A DNA stretch of 19,224 nt. Origin: an uncultured bacterium (GTDB taxonomy: Bacteria; Bdellovibrionota_C; UBA2361; CAKMMH01). Below are positions 7,246-17,744 of the stretch, piece after piece (position 1 is the stretch's first letter; every line of letters starts with the position of its first letter). The stretch spans positions 1 through 19,224 of the forward strand of contig CAKMMH010000008.1 in the NCBI GenBank assembly GCA_927798255.1, given 5' to 3'. The translations under genes and the position numbers were made by a program. The notes under the pieces are model-generated. The model had not been told where the DNA came from. It saw nothing but the letters and a program-made list of their open reading frames with translations, and did no database searches.

Positions 7246-7443
7246 ATGGAACCAAAAATTGTTGAAAATAATAAAGAAAAATCACTTGTAAAAAAAGGGG
7301 AAACCTCTTTGAAAAATACAGACAAAAACACATATATTATAAAGCCAATACTACAAACAACAGTAGGGGTGATCTTCTATATAGCCTCGTTTGTAGTGTC
7401 AGTAGCAATTGGCTATACATTCATATTCTCAGTTTTTAACTAA
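7246..7443 (+). CDS. Small single-pass membrane protein, unknown function
   Basis: The 65-residue product has a hydrophilic, lysine-rich N-terminal half (1-32) and one long hydrophobic segment (about 33-63) that should span the membrane, leaving almost nothing on the far side. I do not recognise a family. It is a convincing gene despite its size: it has a near-consensus promoter at 7184-7212, a GAAAGGAAG ribosome-binding site at proper distance, and an intrinsic terminator 22 bases after its stop (7466-7492). Its stop codon overlaps the stop of the convergent gene at 7440 by 4 bases (CTAA). It is a complete single-gene transcription unit and need not belong to the secretion system next to it. 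Confidence 0.75.
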   Translation: MEPKIVENNKEKSLVKKGETSLKNTDKNTYIIKPILQTTVGVIFYIASFVVSVAIGYTFIFSVFN

Positions 7444-8129
7444 GCAAGCTTTGCACAAAGTTCGCGCTCTATAGAACTAAGTTCTGTAGAGCCTTTATTT
7501 TTCATAAGCTCATATCTATTGATAATCTCCTTACCCCTATCAATAGTATTAGAAATAAGCGATATTTTGTCCAAATCTTTTGAAATAGCATTAACATACT
7601 TTTTCATATCCTTTTCGTTATTGTTAGAAAAAGCCTTTTCAAACTCATCGCATTTCTTATTAATTCGTGAAAGTGTATTCTTATTTTTAGTCATAACCTT
7701 TTGCAATTCATCATCAAAAGTATCACCAAGTATTAAATCAATTCCCTCACGTACAATACTTTTAACTCCTGTCGGAATTCCTTTTATACTATCAACCCCA
7801 ATATTAAGTGCACTTTTTAATCCAGACTTTAAATCACTATCTCTTATGGCTTTACCCAAATTTCTAAAATTATCAAAAGTTCTAGCTTTCATCCCTATCG
7901 TATTTTTAAGTACAGCTTTAAGTGCTGTGTTAATAGTGTCAGATATTAAACTCTTCGTCTTTTCATTACTAAAACCGTCCTTAATTTTAGTAATCATATT
8001 ATCTTTCAAGTCCATCTTCATTAAACCAGTATTAATCGCATTATCTAAACTTTCATTTACAGTAGTACTAGCATTTCTAAGTTCTGTACTAACCTCCAAT
8101 TTATTATCCCTATTTAAACTTAACTCCAT
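7440..8129 (-). CDS. Unknown helical protein, last gene of the T4SS/Tad-like operon
   Basis: The 229-residue product has no signal peptide, no cysteine-rich motif and no clear transmembrane helix. It appears almost entirely alpha-helical and amphipathic, with a less polar stretch at about residues 70-135 containing glycine-rich turns (GLKSALNIGV, GIPTGVKS), and a charged, possibly coiled-coil part at about 135-205. I do not recognise a family. It follows the TadB-like gene by 46 bases and is probably translated from the same mRNA. Its strong ribosome-binding site (8157-8163) is separated from ATG 8129 by a perfect hairpin (8139-8156), and no closer start in frame exists. As the last gene of a secretion operon it might be a secreted substrate, a chaperone or a structural accessory; the sequence alone does not decide. 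Confidence 0.72.
   Translation of the reverse strand: MELSLNRDNKLEVSTELRNASTTVNESLDNAINTGLMKMDLKDNMITKIKDGFSNEKTKSLISDTINTALKAVLKNTIGMKARTFDNFRNLGKAIRDSDLKSGLKSALNIGVDSIKGIPTGVKSIVREGIDLILGDTFDDELQKVMTKNKNTLSRINKKCDEFEKAFSNNNEKDMKKYVNAISKDLDKISLISNTIDRGKEIINRYELMKNKGSTELSSIERELCAKLA
7466..7503 (+). terminator. Intrinsic terminator of the 7246-7443 gene, inside a convergent coding region
   Basis: GCTCTA (7466-7471) pairs with TAGAGC (7487-7492). Inside these, after one mismatch, AGAAC pairs with GTTCT, giving about 11 bp around a short loop. It is followed on the + strand by CTTTATTTTTC. It lies within the last 18 codons of the - strand gene 7440-8129. Confidence 0.7.
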
Positions 8130-8138
8130 ATAATTTTC

Positions 8139-8168
8139 GCGTAACCAAAATTACGCACTCCTTTCTTT
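8139..8168 (-). promoter_or_regulatory. Ribosome-binding site and stem-loop before the 229-aa gene
   Basis: On the - strand AAAGAAAGGAGTGC (8168-8155) runs into a 6-bp perfect stem GCGTAA/TTACGC (8156-8151 with 8144-8139, loop TTTTGG). If the stem forms, the Shine-Dalgarno site is brought within about 10 bases of the ATG; unfolded, the gap is about 27. The same 14 bases are found before dnaC at 3287-3300, also followed by a hairpin. Confidence 0.6.
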
Positions 8169-8175
8169 ATAAATT

Positions 8176-9114
8176 CTAATAATCAAGTTTTTTAACTCTT
8201 ATTGAAATCCACACAAGTAACCACATTGAAATAAAATTCCAATACAAAATTAAATTTCCAATCACAGATTTAGTCATTATCTTATAGTTTTCAACATTTG
8301 ATTTTATAAATGACACATACACTATAATGTCTAATAAAATCAATATAAACAAAACAATTCGTGCACTCTTCGTTTCTTCAATTCTCTTCTTTTTTTCCTC
8401 TTGTATTTCACTAATCATGATATAACTTTTATCAATCAACTCTGAAAAGTTACCACCATACAAAAAGCAATGTTCAACATTAGTAAGAAAAGATTTCATT
8501 TGTTTTACACTTACCTTTTCTTTAAAATCTTGAATTGCATTTTCTAATCTTGTACCACTCGAAACTTGAACAAGAAACTTTTTCACATATTCTTGAAGAG
8601 GCTCTATAGTCTTAACTTCACTCATAGCAGAAATAATATCATTATTTATACGAGTATGATTTTTTAACTGCAAAAGAAAGTTTAAAAAAACTTTTTCTAT
8701 TTTTTCTTCTTTATACTCTGCAATCATGCTAAGTATAAAAAAAGGTAAATAGAAAAACGGAATAGATATAATAAGTGACAACATTATAATCTTAAAAAAT
8801 CCAAAAGATACTGTATATGCAAAACATACACATAATACTCCAGCAAATATTACAGAGATAGGGTTTATAAGCATATTCCTTTGCATTCCACATCGATCAA
8901 TTAATATATTTACTTTTTTAAAATAATTAATTTTATTTTTAAACTTCACCTTTTTATTTTTGTCATAATATTTTAGCAAATCACTATAATACTTTTCATT
9001 TTTCTTTTTAAAAAATTCTTTTGCATTGTCTTTTAACTTACTAATTGAAATCTTTTGAAGAATACTATACATGCAAACACCTATAAGCAAAAACAACAAA
9101 CAATTTAATATCAT
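8176..9114 (-). CDS. TadB/GspF-family inner-membrane protein
   Basis: The 312-residue protein has an N-terminal membrane segment (1-21), a basic cytoplasmic linker, two membrane helices at about 83-130, a helical cytoplasmic domain (about 140-245, with the type II secretion F-domain look of FLLQLKNHTR and SGTRLENAI), and two C-terminal helices (about 250-272 and 284-305). That is the plan of TadB/TadC proteins, the platform on which a CpaF-type ATPase works in Tad pili. Its ATG overlaps the stop of the CpaF-like gene by 4 bases (ATGA), which points to translational coupling. Tad systems usually have a TadB-TadC pair; only one such gene is present here, followed by an unrelated helical protein. 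Confidence 0.8.
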   Translation of the reverse strand: MILNCLLFLLIGVCMYSILQKISISKLKDNAKEFFKKKNEKYYSDLLKYYDKNKKVKFKNKINYFKKVNILIDRCGMQRNMLINPISVIFAGVLCVCFAYTVSFGFFKIIMLSLIISIPFFYLPFFILSMIAEYKEEKIEKVFLNFLLQLKNHTRINNDIISAMSEVKTIEPLQEYVKKFLVQVSSGTRLENAIQDFKEKVSVKQMKSFLTNVEHCFLYGGNFSELIDKSYIMISEIQEEKKKRIEETKSARIVLFILILLDIIVYVSFIKSNVENYKIMTKSVIGNLILYWNFISMWLLVWISIRVKKLDY

Positions 9115-10397
9115 AATAAAACCCTTTCTATCTCTGTAGTAGATAACTCTATCTTTTCTTTTACTTTATTTATTGCATCATTTACTTTTTCAAAATGTCC
9201 TATTGATTTTCCATTTTCATATCTATCTACTTTAAATTCAAACAAAATGTTATATCTCACATCTTGAATTTCTTCATCATATATAACTTCGGCTATTTCA
9301 TGTATCTTAAAATTTTTCATAAATATGACAACATCCACAGACATAGCTAAAAGCTTTCTCAAATATTTATCTGTATAACTTTGTGCACTAATATCACGTT
9401 TCATAAGAGTAACCAACCTATCAAGAGTATTTTTACTACTATCTGAGTGAACAGTAGCATAACCTCTGTGTCCCGTAGAAACTGCATCGAAAAACACCAT
9501 TGCTTCTTCGCCCTTTAATTCACCTATAACAACAACATCATTAGACATTACAAGCGAATGTGCGGTAAGCTTGGCAAGCGTAATGTTTTTGTCTTTATTT
9601 CTGTTATTTAAAATCTCTCTTTGAATAACATTCGGATGACTTAAGTTAAGTTCAGCTGTTTCTTCATTAGAAGTTATAGATAAGTCTTCTGGAATTCTAT
9701 TTATTAAATTACGCATTAAAGTCGTTTTACCACTTCCACCTTTACCGCTAATAATAATATTACATCCGGAAATAATTGATTTAACAAGAAATTTATAAAT
9801 ATCTAAGTCAAACATTTCAATATCAGTCATAAAAAGTTCTTCAAGCGTTTGATTAAGATTTGGTCTATGTATACGAATTACTAAATTAGGCGAAGAAACA
9901 TTCACAGGCTCGATTCCAGCTTCTATACGCAAATTATTTTTTCTATCACTAACAACAACTATCGGTTCTTCATTTGTAATCTTTCCATGATTTTTCAAAA
10001 TACAATAACGCACAAAATTTGTATAATCCTCTTTCGAATTAAAGGACTCTTTTATTCTCTCCCAATTTCCTTTTCTCTTTACAAATACTCTATCAAAGCT
10101 AGTTACTCTAATATCAGAAACATCAGCATCATCAATATATTTTTGCAAAATATAATAGCCAAAAATTCTATCCAAAATATTTTTAATAGTAGATTCTGTA
10201 TTCATATTTGCATACTCTTTATAGACCTTCTCGCGTATAATATTTTCAACAATATTTCTATTAATATCAATGTCACTTAAATAATCAGAATAGTTATTAA
10301 TTAGGAAACTAATTATCTCACCAATAACCTTATCTTTATTCACTTCTAAATTAGGCTCTACATTATTTGCCTCACTTTTTAAAGGATTAATTAACAC
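9111..10397 (-). CDS. CpaF/TadA/VirB11-family secretion ATPase
   Basis: The 428-residue protein is a hexameric traffic ATPase of the type II/IV secretion superfamily. Visible motifs are an N-terminal domain (about 60-210), Walker A GKGGSGKTT (218-226), an acidic Asp box around ITSNEETAEL (241-250), Walker B VVVIGELKGEEA (288-299) and the His box STGHRGYATVHS (307-318). Together these are diagnostic for CpaF/VirB11. The GTG start at 10397 has AGGTGA upstream and overlaps the end of the CpaE-like gene by 11 bases. With the TadB-like gene downstream it would form the motor and platform of a Tad-type apparatus; with the VirB4-like gene upstream it could equally serve as the VirB11 of a T4SS. The motifs are intact, so it should be active. 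Confidence 0.93.
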   Translation of the reverse strand: MLINPLKSEANNVEPNLEVNKDKVIGEIISFLINNYSDYLSDIDINRNIVENIIREKVYKEYANMNTESTIKNILDRIFGYYILQKYIDDADVSDIRVTSFDRVFVKRKGNWERIKESFNSKEDYTNFVRYCILKNHGKITNEEPIVVVSDRKNNLRIEAGIEPVNVSSPNLVIRIHRPNLNQTLEELFMTDIEMFDLDIYKFLVKSIISGCNIIISGKGGSGKTTLMRNLINRIPEDLSITSNEETAELNLSHPNVIQREILNNRNKDKNITLAKLTAHSLVMSNDVVVIGELKGEEAMVFFDAVSTGHRGYATVHSDSSKNTLDRLVTLMKRDISAQSYTDKYLRKLLAMSVDVVIFMKNFKIHEIAEVIYDEEIQDVRYNILFEFKVDRYENGKSIGHFEKVNDAINKVKEKIELSTTEIERVLL

Positions 10398-11721
10398 TTG
10401 TAATCACCTGTCTTTCTAGCTTATTATCAGTCGCAAAAAAATTCTTTTTAATATCAAGCAATTTTTCAATAATATTTTTCTTAGGCACGTAATTTATATT
10501 CATCAAAATATTTCCATAAGAATTAGCATTTGACTCTTCATTAAACTTTATTTCACCAACAATTTTCATTCCATCCATAGCCTCTACTATAACTTCATCT
10601 TCGATGCTTGTTTTAGATTTTTTATTAACAATAATCTCAATCTTTTGTTTCCAAACTCCCCAAGTTTTAGTAATAATGTTGATAAACTGATTCATCTTTT
10701 TTAGTGAAAGAAAATTACTTTCTGTAATGAACAAAATCCTTGTTGCCATGCTTAAAGCCCATTTTGTAGAATCTAAAAACATATTGCTACTCGTATCAAT
10801 AATAATAAAATCATATTTCTCCTTTGCACATCTTAATAGCTCGTTATAGCAATCGCTATTAAGTACATTTTGACAGTAATGTAATGATGTATTACCAGTT
10901 AAAACATCAAATCCTCCAACATTTACAACAAGTTCATCAAAGACATTTGAATTAAATCTATTCTTCATAATTAATTCCGAAACATAATTTATTCCAGATT
11001 TTTTATCTGCATCTAAACAAATTTCAATGTTTTTTGGCACTTTATCAATTTGCAAAATTTCATCAATGTTACCATTTAAAGTATCCAAATCTATAAGTAA
11101 AATTTTAGAAGCACTTTTTTCAGATAAGACCTTGCAAAAGTTTACAGCAAAAGTTGATTTGCCAGCACCAGGTATTCCGCTTATTGCAATAACTTCTTGC
11201 TTTTGTACCATTTTCTCTAAAACTACGGGAACATCTTTTTCAGCTTTTTCTTTTTTTTCAAAACCACTAACCTTTTTGGGGTTGCTTTTTTGAAGTTCTA
11301 TAACATTATCAGTAACATTATATTTTTCTATATCTTCGCTTACCATTTCATATTTCTTTATAATAGGATCTTCTCTATCAATCGCATCAACAATATCTTG
11401 CACTTCAACACTACTATCTAAAAAAATATCCAAGACATTACTCTTTTCCAAAACTTTTCTTAAAGCATTATCAATCTCATCAATAACAATAATAATTCTA
11501 GCAGAAGAATTTTCTTTTCTTATTTTCGAAACAAACTCCTCTAAATCCCATTGACCTTGCAAAAGTCCACTAATTATAATAGTATCTACCTCACATTTAC
11601 TAAGACACGTTACAAGCATATCTTGACAAAACAAATCGTTAGAAATTAAATCATACTTAGAATACTTTTTTAATTCATTATTTAAAATATCATTGCCCAT
11701 AGCAGTAACTATTTTTTTCAT
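10387..11721 (-). CDS. CpaE/TadZ-like protein: pseudo-receiver domain plus MinD/ParA-type ATPase
   Basis: Residues 1-118 resemble a response-regulator fold in which the usual phospho-acceptor Asp after strand 3 is replaced (TIIISGLL), as in the receiver-like domains of CpaE/TadZ. A charged linker (about 120-172) leads to a P-loop ATPase with GIPGAGKST (182-190) and the partner motif LLIDLDTLNGNID (208-220). It lacks the signature lysine of the MinD/ParA deviant Walker A (KGGxGKT). In Tad systems this protein places the pilus machine at its site in the cell. Here it stands between the VirB4-like and CpaF-like genes. AAGGGGGAG precedes the ATG by 6 bases. It starts 22 bases after the end of the VirB4-like gene and overlaps CpaF by 11 bases. 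Confidence 0.8.
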   Translation of the reverse strand: MKKIVTAMGNDILNNELKKYSKYDLISNDLFCQDMLVTCLSKCEVDTIIISGLLQGQWDLEEFVSKIRKENSSARIIIVIDEIDNALRKVLEKSNVLDIFLDSSVEVQDIVDAIDREDPIIKKYEMVSEDIEKYNVTDNVIELQKSNPKKVSGFEKKEKAEKDVPVVLEKMVQKQEVIAISGIPGAGKSTFAVNFCKVLSEKSASKILLIDLDTLNGNIDEILQIDKVPKNIEICLDADKKSGINYVSELIMKNRFNSNVFDELVVNVGGFDVLTGNTSLHYCQNVLNSDCYNELLRCAKEKYDFIIIDTSSNMFLDSTKWALSMATRILFITESNFLSLKKMNQFINIITKTWGVWKQKIEIIVNKKSKTSIEDEVIVEAMDGMKIVGEIKFNEESNANSYGNILMNINYVPKKNIIEKLLDIKKNFFATDNKLERQVITSVN

Positions 11722-11743
11722 AAAAACTCCCCCTTAAAACTCA

Positions 11744-13519
11744 TCACAAATCTTCTCTATCAGTACTAATAAATTTATGTTCATATTCCGATGCTTTAAC
11801 CTTGACAAGAATATGATTTTTGCCAGCATACATAAGACATGATCCACGTTCGACATTTAATAATTTATAGCTTTCCATTTCAGATAAATTCAAAACTTCC
11901 TTAAGCTTTAAAATATCAGTCTCCTCTACTTGAAAAACACATTTGATAGCCGAATTATTTAAAATACCTTTTCCATACACTCCATCTTCAAGTGCAAAAA
12001 AATCATTCACATCTTGCGTGATAGCTGTCGCTGCACCACCATATTTTCTTATAGTTTTAAAAATCTTAAAAACAAACATAGCAGTCATACTATTATGATT
12101 AATAAGTTTCCAAACTTCATCTAAATAAATAATCTTTTTCCTTCCTCTATTTAAGCAAATGTTATCCCAATAAAAATCAGTAATAACAAAAAGAAGCATC
12201 GGCAGATTTTTCTCGTCAACATTATAAATATCCGAAACTATAAGTTTATTATTCAAATTTACATTAGTATAATTATTCATAAACTTAAGCGAACCAGAAA
12301 TATATGGCTTTAATAAAACAGCAAACTTTTTCATATTTTTATCTTTTGAAATCAAATTATATAAATCACCTAAAATCGGCATCATTTCTGGTCCTTTAAA
12401 CTTTTTATTATTTAAAAACTTTGAATCTTCACTTTTTACATATAAAGATTCATTATCAAAAGTAATTCCTTTTTCTGCATAACATTTAATAATCTTTTCT
12501 TCCAATAAGTTTTTCTCTTCATCAACTAAATCCGGAAAAATAATACTGAAAAAAGTCATTAACTTTTGAAGTTTATTTTGTAAAAAATTCTCATCACCAT
12601 CAAGAGAAATTTCTCTAATGTCAAAAATATTTATGACATCGCCTTTCCCAAAATTTATAAAAGCACCATTCAAAGCTTTACAAAGCTCTACGTACTCACG
12701 ATCAGGATCGATAACAAACTGAGTAATATTTAAAAGCCTATTTCTTCCAATCATAAGTTTTATAAAATAAGACTTTCCAGAACCGCTGGCTCCAAACACA
12801 CACATATTAGCATTTTTGTACTTAGCAGTATCAAATCTATCAACCATAACGATTGAATTATTAAAAGCATTTACTCCAATCAAAACACCTTTTTCATCAC
12901 AAAAGTCATTTGATATAAATGGGTATGTACTAACTAATCCACTCGTCAAAACATTTCTTTTACTCACGTTCTTCACATCTTTGGGATTATATAAAATAGG
13001 CAAACATGCCTTAAATAAACTCTCTTCTCTAAAAAATCCTCTTCGTGTACTTAAACCACAGCCTAACGCAATCGATTCAATCCTTTGCAAATTTTCTTCC
13101 AACAATTTCAAATCTTTTGCAAACGTCAAAATATAAATGTTTAAATAATACAAATCATCATTATCAACCTGCATCTTTTTCTTTATATATTTAGCATTTT
13201 CATAACTCTCATTCATCACATCAATATCTATCTGATTTTTGGAAGACGTTTTAATATTTGCACCTGTGGCACTAATATAACTAGTAAGCTCTTTTAGTGT
13301 TTCATAAGAATTCTTTTTTTCATAAAACATAGAAATCTCAAAATCAATATTAGAAGAAATAAGCCCATCTAAAAAGCCACCGTCCATCTCAGAACTATAG
13401 TTATTTACAAAAATAGAAGCTGCCAAATACTCGTTAACTGTCAAATATTTAGGATTACGTGTATCAATAAAAGTTGGACATAAATTATTTAAAGATTTTT
13501 TAGTGTTAATAAAAGCCAT
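11744..13519 (-). CDS. VirB4/TrsE-like T4SS ATPase
   Basis: I place the start at ATG 13519 (MAFINTKKS), preceded by AAAGGAA, giving 591 residues. The longer frame from 13561 begins inside the previous gene. Residues 1-230 are the VirB4-type N-terminal part. The ATPase domain has Walker A GASGSGKS (243-250), Walker B IIYLDE (463-468) followed by VWKLI, and a conserved TAITQDVNDF motif (498-507). VirB4 is the most conserved T4SS ATPase and energises assembly and substrate transfer. The length matches the TrsE-type form of staphylococcal conjugation systems, where the extreme N-terminal region is a separate protein (TrsD). Such a gene lies immediately upstream, 14 bases away. Confidence 0.9.
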   Translation of the reverse strand: MAFINTKKSLNNLCPTFIDTRNPKYLTVNEYLAASIFVNNYSSEMDGGFLDGLISSNIDFEISMFYEKKNSYETLKELTSYISATGANIKTSSKNQIDIDVMNESYENAKYIKKKMQVDNDDLYYLNIYILTFAKDLKLLEENLQRIESIALGCGLSTRRGFFREESLFKACLPILYNPKDVKNVSKRNVLTSGLVSTYPFISNDFCDEKGVLIGVNAFNNSIVMVDRFDTAKYKNANMCVFGASGSGKSYFIKLMIGRNRLLNITQFVIDPDREYVELCKALNGAFINFGKGDVINIFDIREISLDGDENFLQNKLQKLMTFFSIIFPDLVDEEKNLLEEKIIKCYAEKGITFDNESLYVKSEDSKFLNNKKFKGPEMMPILGDLYNLISKDKNMKKFAVLLKPYISGSLKFMNNYTNVNLNNKLIVSDIYNVDEKNLPMLLFVITDFYWDNICLNRGRKKIIYLDEVWKLINHNSMTAMFVFKIFKTIRKYGGAATAITQDVNDFFALEDGVYGKGILNNSAIKCVFQVEETDILKLKEVLNLSEMESYKLLNVERGSCLMYAGKNHILVKVKASEYEHKFISTDREDL

Positions 13520-13533
13520 AATAAATTTCCTTT

Positions 13534-14058
13534 CTAAACATTTTCTCTTCGAAAAAAGCACTCAAAAATCTTACAAATGACATCTTCTTTGCACGCACTC
13601 ACTTCATTACCACAAGCTTCTAATGTGCTTACAATTTTATTAATGCTTTCTTCATAATCTCTTTTCTTTTTATAAATAATAACAAATCTTCTCGTAAAAC
13701 TTCGCTTGTCACCAACAATTTGTGTAATTAATTCCTTATAACATTTAGTCATCTGAGATAATTTTGAATCTTCTGTATAATACTTATCGACTTCTTCCAA
13801 ATGCTTACTGACATCGGTCTTATATGCTAAAACTATTATCTGAATATCAAAATCACATTGCTTTAAAAATCTTCTATACGTATCTAAAATAGCCATCTGT
13901 TCAAGTTCAGATTTTAATTTAAAATTTACAGGTTTCACTTCAAGAACTGATATAACATCATTATTTGTAAGATATATAAATTCATCAAAATTCTTTATAG
14001 GTAGCCATTCTAAAACATCATGCAGTTTATCTTTTTTTATAAAAATCCCACCTTTCAT
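13534..14058 (-). CDS. TrsD-like protein (detached N-terminal domain of VirB4)
   Basis: The 174-residue product begins KDKLHDVLEWLPI and contains EVKPVNFKLKSELEQ, a pattern I associate with the N-terminal portion of VirB4 proteins and with TrsD, which is encoded directly before TrsE in pGO1/pSK41-type systems. No ATPase motif is present, as expected. The gene ends 14 bases before the TrsE-like start. The start is uncertain: ATG 14058 has no ribosome-binding site, while an AAAGGTGGG stretch lies inside the frame at 14055-14047, six bases before an ATA codon at 14040. It is the first gene of the operon, behind a promoter (14156-14184) and a leader terminator (14094-14134). Confidence 0.7.
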   Translation of the reverse strand: MKGGIFIKKDKLHDVLEWLPIKNFDEFIYLTNNDVISVLEVKPVNFKLKSELEQMAILDTYRRFLKQCDFDIQIIVLAYKTDVSKHLEEVDKYYTEDSKLSQMTKCYKELITQIVGDKRSFTRRFVIIYKKKRDYEESINKIVSTLEACGNEVSACKEDVICKIFECFFRRENV

Positions 14059-14221: not shown

Positions 14222-14250
14222 CTGACTTTTAGATATAACTTGTGTATAAT
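14222..14250 (+). promoter_or_regulatory. Promoter for a short + strand RNA
   Basis: CTGACT (14222-14227) and a perfect TATAAT (14245-14250) are separated by 17 bases. It is divergent from the T4SS operon promoter, with about 40 bases between the two -35 boxes. Transcription would start near 14257. Confidence 0.6.
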
Positions 14251-14256
14251 AAATAT

Positions 14257-14345
14257 AGGAAATGGAGAAACCACAAATGTGGTTTTGCCAAGTAAAATGT
14301 GAAAACTCACATCCGCTTGTCAAAGTTACAGATGTGAGCTTTTTT
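14257..14345 (+). ncRNA. Short structured RNA or orphan attenuator leader, about 90 nt
   Basis: After the promoter, a hairpin AAACCAC-AAAT-GTGGTTT (14268-14285) comes first. Then ATGTGA (14297-14302) can pair with TCACAT (14307-14312), but the same segment (CTCACATC, 14306-14313) also pairs with GATGTGAG (14331-14338), directly before TTTTTT (14340-14345). The two pairings exclude each other, as in an antiterminator and terminator. No + strand protein gene follows within reach, so it is either a small RNA or a leader that has lost its gene. No known riboswitch was recognised. Confidence 0.55.
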
Positions 14346-14354
14346 ATTTACGTA

Positions 14355-14410: not shown

Positions 14411-14443
14411 AAAAATTATCCACGTCCCTAAAAGGACGTGGAT
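14411..14443 (-). terminator. Intrinsic terminator of the large noncoding RNA
   Basis: A perfect 10-bp stem ATCCACGTCC/GGACGTGGAT (14443-14434 with 14427-14418, six-base loop) is followed on the - strand by AATTTTT. The + strand side has no T tract, so it works in the - direction only. Confidence 0.8.
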
Positions 14444-14888
14444 ATCATATAGAAAAGTACAAATCTTAACTCCGACTAAATATGGATAATTACGCACCTC
14501 AGTATACCTTTCGGCGATACCAAAGCACTCCACCACCCACAAAAATCTTTGCTCGAATATTAAGAAAATCTACACAACCATGCAAGGCTTTTTTAGCCAA
14601 ACACAATCATTCTTATAAATGTTTTTTATTTAAGTTGTCCTTCTAGAACAACTTAAGTCAGAAACAAACTTTCAACTTCCAGAATACTCTTAACTCAAAT
14701 GCATGGCATACTCATTGACCATATATTTATAAAACTTTATCATACAGCCAAAGTCACACATCATACACTCTTAACGCCGACTATACATCATAGTAATTAC
14801 CACCATGTATAATCTTTGTACGAATCGCAAAAGACTACATCGATAATAATCTAATGAAACTCTTAGCTCAACTTGTACTTCTCTAACA
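14412..14888 (-). ncRNA. Large structured noncoding RNA, about 477 nt, family not recognised
   Basis: The region has no usable reading frame on this strand but has a promoter at one end (14895-14924) and an intrinsic terminator at the other (14411-14443). The predicted 5' end (14885-14871) pairs with 14464-14450 to form a 15-bp helix, two of the pairs G-U, enclosing almost the whole RNA just before the terminator. Inside are a 7-bp long-range helix (14706-14700 with 14584-14578), a hairpin with 7-bp ends at 14811-14782, a 9-bp hairpin at 14656-14630, a short GGCT/AGCC hairpin near 14598-14586, and a GAAA-tetraloop hairpin with one bulged C at 14520-14502. The motif GNGYTAAGA occurs four times. 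I see no signature of RNase P RNA, tmRNA, 6S or SRP RNA. Large RNAs such as ROOL or GOLLD are possible relatives, which I could not test. Confidence 0.75.
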
Positions 14889-14894
14889 ATCATT

Positions 14895-14924
14895 ATTATA
14901 ACCACGCAAAAAAAGTTTATTCAA
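14895..14924 (-). promoter_or_regulatory. Promoter of the large noncoding RNA
   Basis: On the - strand, TTGAAT (14924-14919) and a perfect TATAAT (14900-14895) are separated by 18 bases. The predicted start near 14888 is three bases before the closing helix of the RNA. The AT-rich stretch from here to about 15014 shows nothing else. Confidence 0.7.
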
Positions 14925-17611: not shown

Positions 17612-17744
17612 AATTCCGCAAGATACACTTATATGAATGGCGAAGCACATACCAATAACTACTTATCGCTGCTTCCTTCCAGACCTGACGAGGTTCATAG
17701 CTCGCTATCGCCTCCCCATTCATATAAATGCACCTTGCGGAATC
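17612..17744 (-). ncRNA. ffs: Signal recognition particle RNA (small bacterial type)
   Basis: The conserved domain IV sequence GGTCTGGAAGGAAGCAGC (17685-17668) is present in full, with the GTCAGG before it. This is the site that binds the Ffh protein. The ends pair over a long distance: ATTCCGCAAG (17743-17734) with CTTGCGGAAT (17622-17613), then a perfect 12-bp helix (17727-17716 with 17640-17629). The RNA is a single long hairpin of about 133 nt. No Alu domain is seen, so it is the short bacterial form, though longer than E. coli 4.5S RNA. A -10-like TATTAT lies at 17761-17756. SRP RNA next to dnaX is common in Firmicutes. Confidence 0.95.

Follow-up and report, generated by a model that had tools for sequence, protein, structure and literature searches.

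On its reverse strand, at positions 14888-14412, the window (the whole stretch of DNA analysed, 19,224 nucleotides) carries what looks like a stand-alone RNA gene with its own promoter, a 16-bp closing helix, a six-helix junction and a terminator. Judged from the DNA, this presumably transcribed gene is almost certainly real. We favour, as the probable explanation, that it encodes a large trans-acting structural RNA of a family with no counterpart found in Rfam 15. Large structured RNAs are few in bacteria, and several have turned out to be unusual machines.

Boundaries and fold strength

The start of the gene (14412..14888, reverse strand, as are all features of the RNA given below) was placed by a promoter-like site and its end by the tail of a terminator hairpin, with the strength of the fold and the homologues as further support. 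The promoter described in an earlier note, TTGAAT and TATAAT separated by 18 nt, is present at 14895..14924 (TTGAAT at 14924-14919, TATAAT at 14900-14895) and agrees with the consensus at 10 of 12 positions. As a scan of 1,801 bases returned 16 promoter-like sites where 9.1 were expected, this match alone proves little. When the loci of relatives were examined, the pattern TTGAATA (at least five of seven positions) followed after 16 to 18 nt by TATAAT (at least four of six) was found 3-14 nt before the closing helix P1 in 42 of the 44 loci with enough upstream DNA, compared with 19.1 ± 3.3 (maximum 28) in shuffled letters. A stricter first pattern matched 25 of 44 loci; it was loosened after looking, and the shuffled control was added.

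Downstream, a terminator hairpin with a T-rich tail occupies 14412..14444 (hairpin 14444-14417). The earlier note had described this hairpin correctly except for its stem, which has 12 bp rather than 10. A terminator-like stem of at least 8 bp, no more than 80 nt past P1, occurred in 19 of the 20 sequences of our main alignment, a count that scores the stem with the T run uncounted and has no shuffled control. The reported lack of a protein frame was also borne out, the longest stop-free stretch within 14886-14450 being 58 codons in any frame; across the 20 sequences, taken singly, the corresponding value ranged from 36 to 123 codons. The minimum free energy of the RNA was -156.3 kcal/mol, compared with -106.65 ± 5.15 kcal/mol for 100 dinucleotide shuffles, and the resulting z-score of -9.64 places the fold well beyond chance. 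Two relatives gave z-scores of -7.60 (L211, of the Clostridia order introduced below) and -17.86 (L299, a distant member). Family members are about 360-570 nt in size. Its multi-helix fold covaries, its ends resemble a promoter and a terminator, and long reading frames are lacking, so that the element would belong to the loose kind of large structured stand-alone bacterial noncoding RNAs.

Six arms joined by six repeated linkers

In the predicted fold, read as a junction, six arms (P1, the closing helix, to P6) are joined by six near-repeated linkers of 7-8 nt. The earlier note had missed both these linkers and the two-fold repeat that they form. The 5′ strand of P1 (14870..14885) pairs with its 3′ strand (14450..14465), which is placed by the predicted fold and by covariation; all 15 pairs of the closing helix named previously were recovered at probabilities of 0.83-1.0, and the predicted fold extends it to 16 bp. 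Between the two strands lie, in order, linker L12 (GAGCUAA, 14863..14869), arm P2 (14822..14862), linker L23 (GUACAAA, 14815..14821), arm P3 (14779..14814), linker L34 (GGCGUUAA, 14771..14778), arm P4 (14697..14770), linker L45 (GAGUUAA, 14690..14696), arm P5 (14555..14689), linker L56 (GAGCAAA, 14548..14554), arm P6 (14474..14547) and linker L61 (GGAGUUAA, 14466..14473). P5 is the longest arm, and its distal part varies between subgroups.

The linkers measure 7, 7, 8, 7, 7 and 8 nt in the window, and their lengths are closely kept in the 20 aligned sequences: L12 and L23 have 7 nt in every one, L34 has 8 nt in 19 and 9 nt in one, L45 has 7 nt in 15 and 8 nt in five, and L56 and L61 span 7-9 and 8-9 nt, respectively. 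Their consensus is roughly G-A/G-G/C-N-N-A-A, and the helix after each usually starts with GA. L45, L56 and L61 are the counterparts of L12, L23 and L34 (L23 itself reads GAGCAAA in 12 of the 20 sequences). Because each linker resembles the one three places further on, the P1-P2-P3 half of the molecule looks similar to the P4-P5-P6 half. In many members L61 differs (UUAGCUGA and similar) and is not repeat-like.

When 14 loci (195,513 bases) were searched with a model of the P2-P4 part derived from 20 members, a second, weaker match on the same strand and in the same neighbourhood was returned in five of them (L299, L304, L295, L302 and L296). The best of these, in L299 (E 8e-7 in 195,513 bases), fell onto the P6 part; in this locus, the one inspected of the five, linker-P3-linker aligned on linker-P6-linker. 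To our knowledge, no catalogued family combines six arms with six repeated linkers in a two-half arrangement of this kind.

The minimum-energy fold of the window RNA weakly pairs (3-4 bp) parts of L12 with L61 and of L45 with L56; in the homologue alignment the six joining strands appear as linkers. The GAAA-tetraloop hairpin noted earlier was found to cap the last arm, P6. A GNRA loop is present at this position in all 20 sequences, in five versions (GAAA, GCAA, GUAA, GGAA and GGGA), and its conservation by class rather than by sequence suggests a tertiary contact.

Identification of relatives

BLAST with the window RNA in 143 related genomes, its own included, gave nothing convincing; the best other match (L011, E 9e-6) lies in what is, by eye, a protein gene. 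RecR is encoded beside the RNA in the window; the idea that relatives share this synteny was abandoned, as the linkers were seen at no RecR locus of L071-L177, and whole genomes of RecR relatives were therefore searched instead. The genomes behind 29 of 80 RecR loci yielded a single clear homologue (67% identity, E 1.8e-10), which keeps all six linkers with rewritten helices.

A covariance model built from window positions 14871-14690 (R1) matched 14 of these 29 genomes at E≤5e-4, a further match (L215, E 0.24) being excluded as protein-coding by eye, and, in the family of the first homologue, six of 13 genomes including that homologue. A second model built from 20 sequences (R2) matched 203 of 385 genomes of one Clostridia order, which we take to be TANB77, at E≤0.001, with most E-values between 1e-15 and 1e-31. 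The order-wide search used stricter filters, so weak members may have been missed. Across the class 29 of 391 genomes matched, eight of them already among the 203; one of the 29 (G590, E 1.7e-4) was weak and is not relied on, and the remaining 20, mostly larger genomes of 1.9-5.3 Mb, are taken to lie outside the order. Seven of 40 further genomes matched: the window's own, one of the order, Thermobrachium celere DSM 8682, Clostridium magnum DSM 2767, a Bacillota bacterium metagenome genome, and Clostridium thermobutyricum and a Clostridiales bacterium, both already in the 29. Within the same 40, R2 found nothing in 18 genomes taken to be Bacilli, Clostridioides difficile CD10-165, Ruminiclostridium cellobioparum or Alkaliphilus pronyensis.

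These searches demonstrate that many of the genomes searched in the order and class carry the RNA, though by no means all do. The 182 of 385 genomes of the order without a match reflect partly fragmentary genomes and partly real loss, which indicates that the RNA is dispensable for some of its potential hosts.

Covariation of the junction

In the main alignment (A5; 20 sequences, 69 pairs over the six arms) 95.0% of cells were paired and 46 of the 69 pairs had changed on both sides, with 191 such cells; the pairs were taken from the structure of a single relative, L206, which favours this structure over slid versions. The covariation score was 0.482, compared with 0.199 ± 0.010 for shuffles, and none of 500 shuffles, which ignore shared ancestry, reached any of the measures. 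Sliding the partner strand by 1-3 columns lowered pairing from 95% to 34-49%. In these AT-rich hosts A-U and G-U make up most of the pairs, and chance pairing is therefore easier, though neither shuffling nor sliding accounted for the pairing.

The earlier note had suggested a covariation check in homologues for the helices it listed; in the homologues, P1 and the remaining five arms were all kept by compensatory changes. P1 was 95.6% paired in the 20 sequences, with 10 of its 16 pairs changed on both sides, and covarying pairs made up 7 of 10 basal pairs in P2, 8 of 10 pairs in P3, 5 of 9 basal pairs in P4, 6 of 7 basal pairs in P5 and 6 of 9 pairs in P6. P1 thus withstood a comparison that the earlier note had named as able to overturn its proposal, broken helices in homologues, but the second helix named there did not: the long-range pairing of 14706-14700 with 14584-14578 (7 bp) had an ensemble probability of 0.0 and was not kept in 19 aligned relatives. 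Its 5′ strand (14706-14700) is the 3′ strand of arm P4.

From the alignment alone, RNAalifold recovered P1-P4 and P6, and 73 of the 106 pairs covaried; the base of P5 stayed unpaired in this prediction, and two pairs were placed between linkers L34 and L45. When sequences were folded singly, half or more of an arm's pairs formed in 20 of 20 for P1 and P6, in 19 for P2, P3 and P4 and in 18 for P5. One relative, L220, lost three arms when folded alone.

A wider alignment restricted to P2-P4 (A8; 27 sequences, comprising 13 more-distant members and 14 of the 20) was 96.1% paired, with 41 of 52 pairs covarying (13 of 15 in P2, 13 of 15 in P3 and 11 of 15 in P4) and a score of 0.646 compared with 0.244. 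Among 17 members taken as lying outside the order, 269 of 272 cells of P1 were paired, a set in which C. magnum is represented by four copies that look nearly identical and T. celere by two. These 17 came from 24 extracted sequences, the 3′ end not having been located in L270, L277, L293, L295, L296, L300 and L304. Since L298, L302 and L303 align poorly in the middle of the RNA, P1 alone was counted in this alignment. Together the comparisons demonstrate, at the level of sequence, covariation of a predicted six-helix junction closed by P1.

Copy number and mobility

Most carriers have one copy of the RNA. Some departures from this rule raise the question of whether the structured RNA is itself a selfish or mobile element that spreads: C. 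magnum has five copies, four of them within about 33 kb of one contig and near repeated AAA-ATPase-like genes and an IS110-type transposase-like gene (by eye), T. celere has two copies 7.3 kb apart, and second copies occur in G710, G853 and G870 of the class-wide search. Against such mobility, 202 of the 203 positive genomes of the order gave a single match, the remaining one having two places, and the 46 loci examined are mostly one kind of site. Phages and plasmids held no convincing match: the window query returned only 28-42-nt matches at E≥0.04, the L299 query returned none at E≤0.001, and one C. magnum copy found none in plasmids at E≤0.001. When viral contigs were searched with six exact patterns of the RNA, four had no match. 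Matches to the linker pattern in 30 viral contigs lacked the full linker set and had at most two distinct linker-like words, one of these contigs (L041) being protein-coding, and matches to the P6 pattern in seven viral contigs had no linkers. We therefore regard a mobile element as unlikely.

The five C. magnum copies lie on L291, L292 and L293. One of them (L292:12756-13265) has an insertion of more than 100 nt in P6, and a weak further match (E 0.0076) was seen at L291:18858-19004.

Genomic neighbourhood

Except where a family search is cited, the genes around the RNA were named by eye. In the window a virB4-like gene pair lies outside the RNA at 11744..14058 on the same strand, with the N-domain at 13534-14058 and the ATPase at 11744-13561; the VirB4 is split, such that the short N-domain gene overlaps the ATPase gene, and a separate N-domain gene is found in many relatives too. 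This is the usual neighbour in the order. A virB4-like N-domain gene was found near the RNA in 34 of 46 loci by direct search and in 37 by clustering. In 35 of the 46, virB4 is divergent and on the 5′ side of the RNA, and in 37 gyrB is convergent on its 3′ side, so that usually no downstream gene on the same strand is seen. The window and L216 are exceptions, with virB4 downstream of the RNA on the same strand.

The arrangement in the window, where virB4 begins about 350 nt past the terminator, would suit a leader or riboswitch of this gene. A terminator-like hairpin precedes virB4, however, and across the 46 loci the divergent virB4, the convergent gyrB and the varying genes downstream, together with the terminator-like stems, argue against cis-regulation. 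A leader is the least probable of the explanations we considered.

A dedicated part or regulator of the adjoining virB4/TadA-like secretion system was our first idea. The association in the order is strong: a strong match to the virB4 N-domain occurred in 190 of 203 RNA-positive and 68 of 182 RNA-negative genomes, a comparison that ignores phylogeny and missing contigs and is inflated by adjacency, shared descent and missing contigs. We compared 106 of 150 listed virB4 N-domain places, leaving out 34 whose RNA place is unlisted and 10 in genomes without an RNA match. In 92 of the 106 the gene shares the contig of the RNA, always divergent and in 82 within 2 kb; of the other 14, 11 are on another contig and three have no listed RNA place. 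A7 matches weaker than 1e-25 were treated as other VirB4 paralogues, and moving the cut-off to 1e-30 or 1e-50 left the outcome unchanged. The virB4 neighbour is also retained in some rearranged genomes (the window, L216, L218 and L220).

Set against this association, the order in L261 is dnaA-dnaN-recF-gyrB, the RNA, the virB4 N-domain gene, virB4, a ParA/CpaE-like gene and gyrA, the usual replication-origin region, and the linkage of RNA and virB4 may hence be inherited synteny. Moreover, 68 genomes hold virB4 with no detected RNA. Eight virB4-positive, RNA-negative loci had no RNA match at E≤1; gyrB is in view in five of them, and in L250 and L252 it lies next to virB4 with no RNA between. 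By eye, L255 has kept only the promoter and P1, the interior being gone, L251 retains P1 around a decayed interior, and L254 holds a decayed remnant. The absence in L250 and L252 and the remnants in the other three suggest repeated loss of the RNA. The listed distant members have different neighbours (sigI-like, radC and others), and no virB4 gene was recognised by eye at L268, L273, L278, L291, L292 or L294, all outside the order. These members outside the order weaken the secretion idea, to which we now give a small chance of being right. The few other neighbourhoods read all differ, which indicates that the RNA is probably trans-acting and structural.

In the window itself, positions 7440-14058 hold the virB4 and ParA/CpaE-like cluster with a VirB11-TadA-like gene, adjoining gyrA beside the origin genes. 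The RecR encoded in the window is 80% identical to that of a Clostridia metagenome genome (L098) and at most 47% identical to that of 27 other genomes of the order assigned to the window's genome; the window contig may be misbinned, or the placing of its genome odd.

Comparison with known RNA families

The earlier proposal of a large structured noncoding RNA of unrecognised family was supported by the covariance search it had called for: among the 4,227 families of Rfam 15, none came near its cut-off in the window region, in the 17 relatives' loci or in the other relatives' loci tested. Searching the whole window at E≤1 returned the SRP RNA and one weak match, both outside the RNA, and searching the RNA region at E≤10 returned 11 chance-level matches, those overlapping the RNA on its strand being Virus_CITE_6 (E 0.39; 20.2 bits where the cut-off is 41), IS102 (E 0.57) and GibS (E 1.5). 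In the 17 relatives' loci at E≤1 and in four longer ones at E≤0.1, the only matches were to microRNA models, outside the P1-to-P1 span, in L201 and L260. The sequences concerned (L201 1933-2026 and L260 7797-7987) are long inverted repeats that probably match by chance; the one in L201 directly follows the RNA, as its terminator-like hairpin.

Individual families were considered in turn. RNase P was rejected, as class A was found elsewhere in 17 of 20 carrier genomes and no RNase P match fell at the RNA; class A was not found in the window's genome (G000), G173 or G178, nor class B in G000. ARAGORN found no tmRNA in the window. Models for ROOL, GOLLD and raiA (ModT), the raiA motif being about 200 nt long, were absent among the matches in the window (E≤1), the RNA region (E≤10) and the 17 relatives' loci (E≤1). 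The OLE model (which we take to be RF01071) had no match in the window region at E≤10, the 17 relatives' loci at E≤1 or the four longer loci at E≤0.1, in searches run without an OLE positive control.

OLE deserves particular care, because a short variant has been reported from TANB77: OLE variant 1, a short variant from gut bacteria, is commonest in organisms of this group according to the accessible text of PMC11332333. OLE is also of the same size class, large and ornate (about 600 nt, a membrane ribonucleoprotein, mostly in Bacillota), and the excerpts available describe a five-way junction in its cryo-EM dimer (PMC12286853, PMC11332333). We nevertheless consider it highly improbable that this RNA is a divergent form of a large RNA already known, OLE variant 1 being the foremost candidate. 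The OLE variants were found with an OLE-derived model (accessible text of PMC11332333), yet the OLE model gave no match in the window region (E≤10) or the 17 relatives' loci (E≤1), and the available parts of PMC12286853 and PMC11332333 describe no OLE with six arms joined by repeated linkers.

Other large RNAs share general features with the element. ROOL is a large RNA of unknown role, abundant in one strain, and GOLLD is likewise large and ornate. According to the excerpts available of PMC12286853, a 659-nt ROOL forms an eight-chain cage and GOLLD also forms a cage; unlike the present RNA, GOLLD is often over 800 nt and encoded by phages or prophages. Three exact patterns of the present RNA matched nothing in viral contigs, and the Rfam searches gave no match to GOLLD and, in the window region and 17 relatives' loci, none to ROOL. 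The raiA motif or ModT RNA is also conserved and structured, and occurs in Clostridioides difficile and many other species (accessible text of PMC11706538), but the window region and the 17 relatives' loci have no raiA match. Having failed every named-family membership test run, the RNA class with this junction appears new. In searches of open-access literature, the titles and abstract openings listed gave no description of it, and supplements may list fragments; in the portions available, PMC8040213 gives ncRNA candidates of 27-219 bp and PMC11109978 has no occurrence of gyrB.

A possible scaffold

The RNA would be transcribed and very probably acts in trans. We envisage that it forms a compact, pseudo-two-fold particle whose linkers would be recognised by a protein or by copies of the RNA itself, and that it would serve as a scaffold, either in a ribonucleoprotein or made of RNA alone, and not as the leader of a neighbouring gene. 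Such a scaffold role seems to us somewhat better than an even bet.

A more specific and tentative version, whose elements we would together expect to prove wrong sooner than right, takes the six linkers as six copies of one recognition element. The RNA could then offer up to six equivalent sites, grouped three and three, to a protein that is multimeric or forms a ring, or it could dock copies of itself through the GNRA-capped arm. In either case it might represent a new kind of large ribonucleoprotein or RNA-only particle in Clostridia. The RNA was matched in over two hundred searched genomes, and the cultured species among them open its expression, structure and partner to direct testing.

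Other RNA features of the window

On the forward strand, at 14222-14347, a promoter-like CTGACT and TATAAT separated by 17 nt is followed, by eye, by a hairpin and then by a terminator-like hairpin with a T run. This is a candidate for a separate small RNA of about 95 nt, for which the best Rfam match was SSRC34_2 (E 0.27, below cut-off). Positions 17629-17724 on the reverse strand encode a bacterial small SRP RNA (Rfam RF00169, E 3.7e-12).
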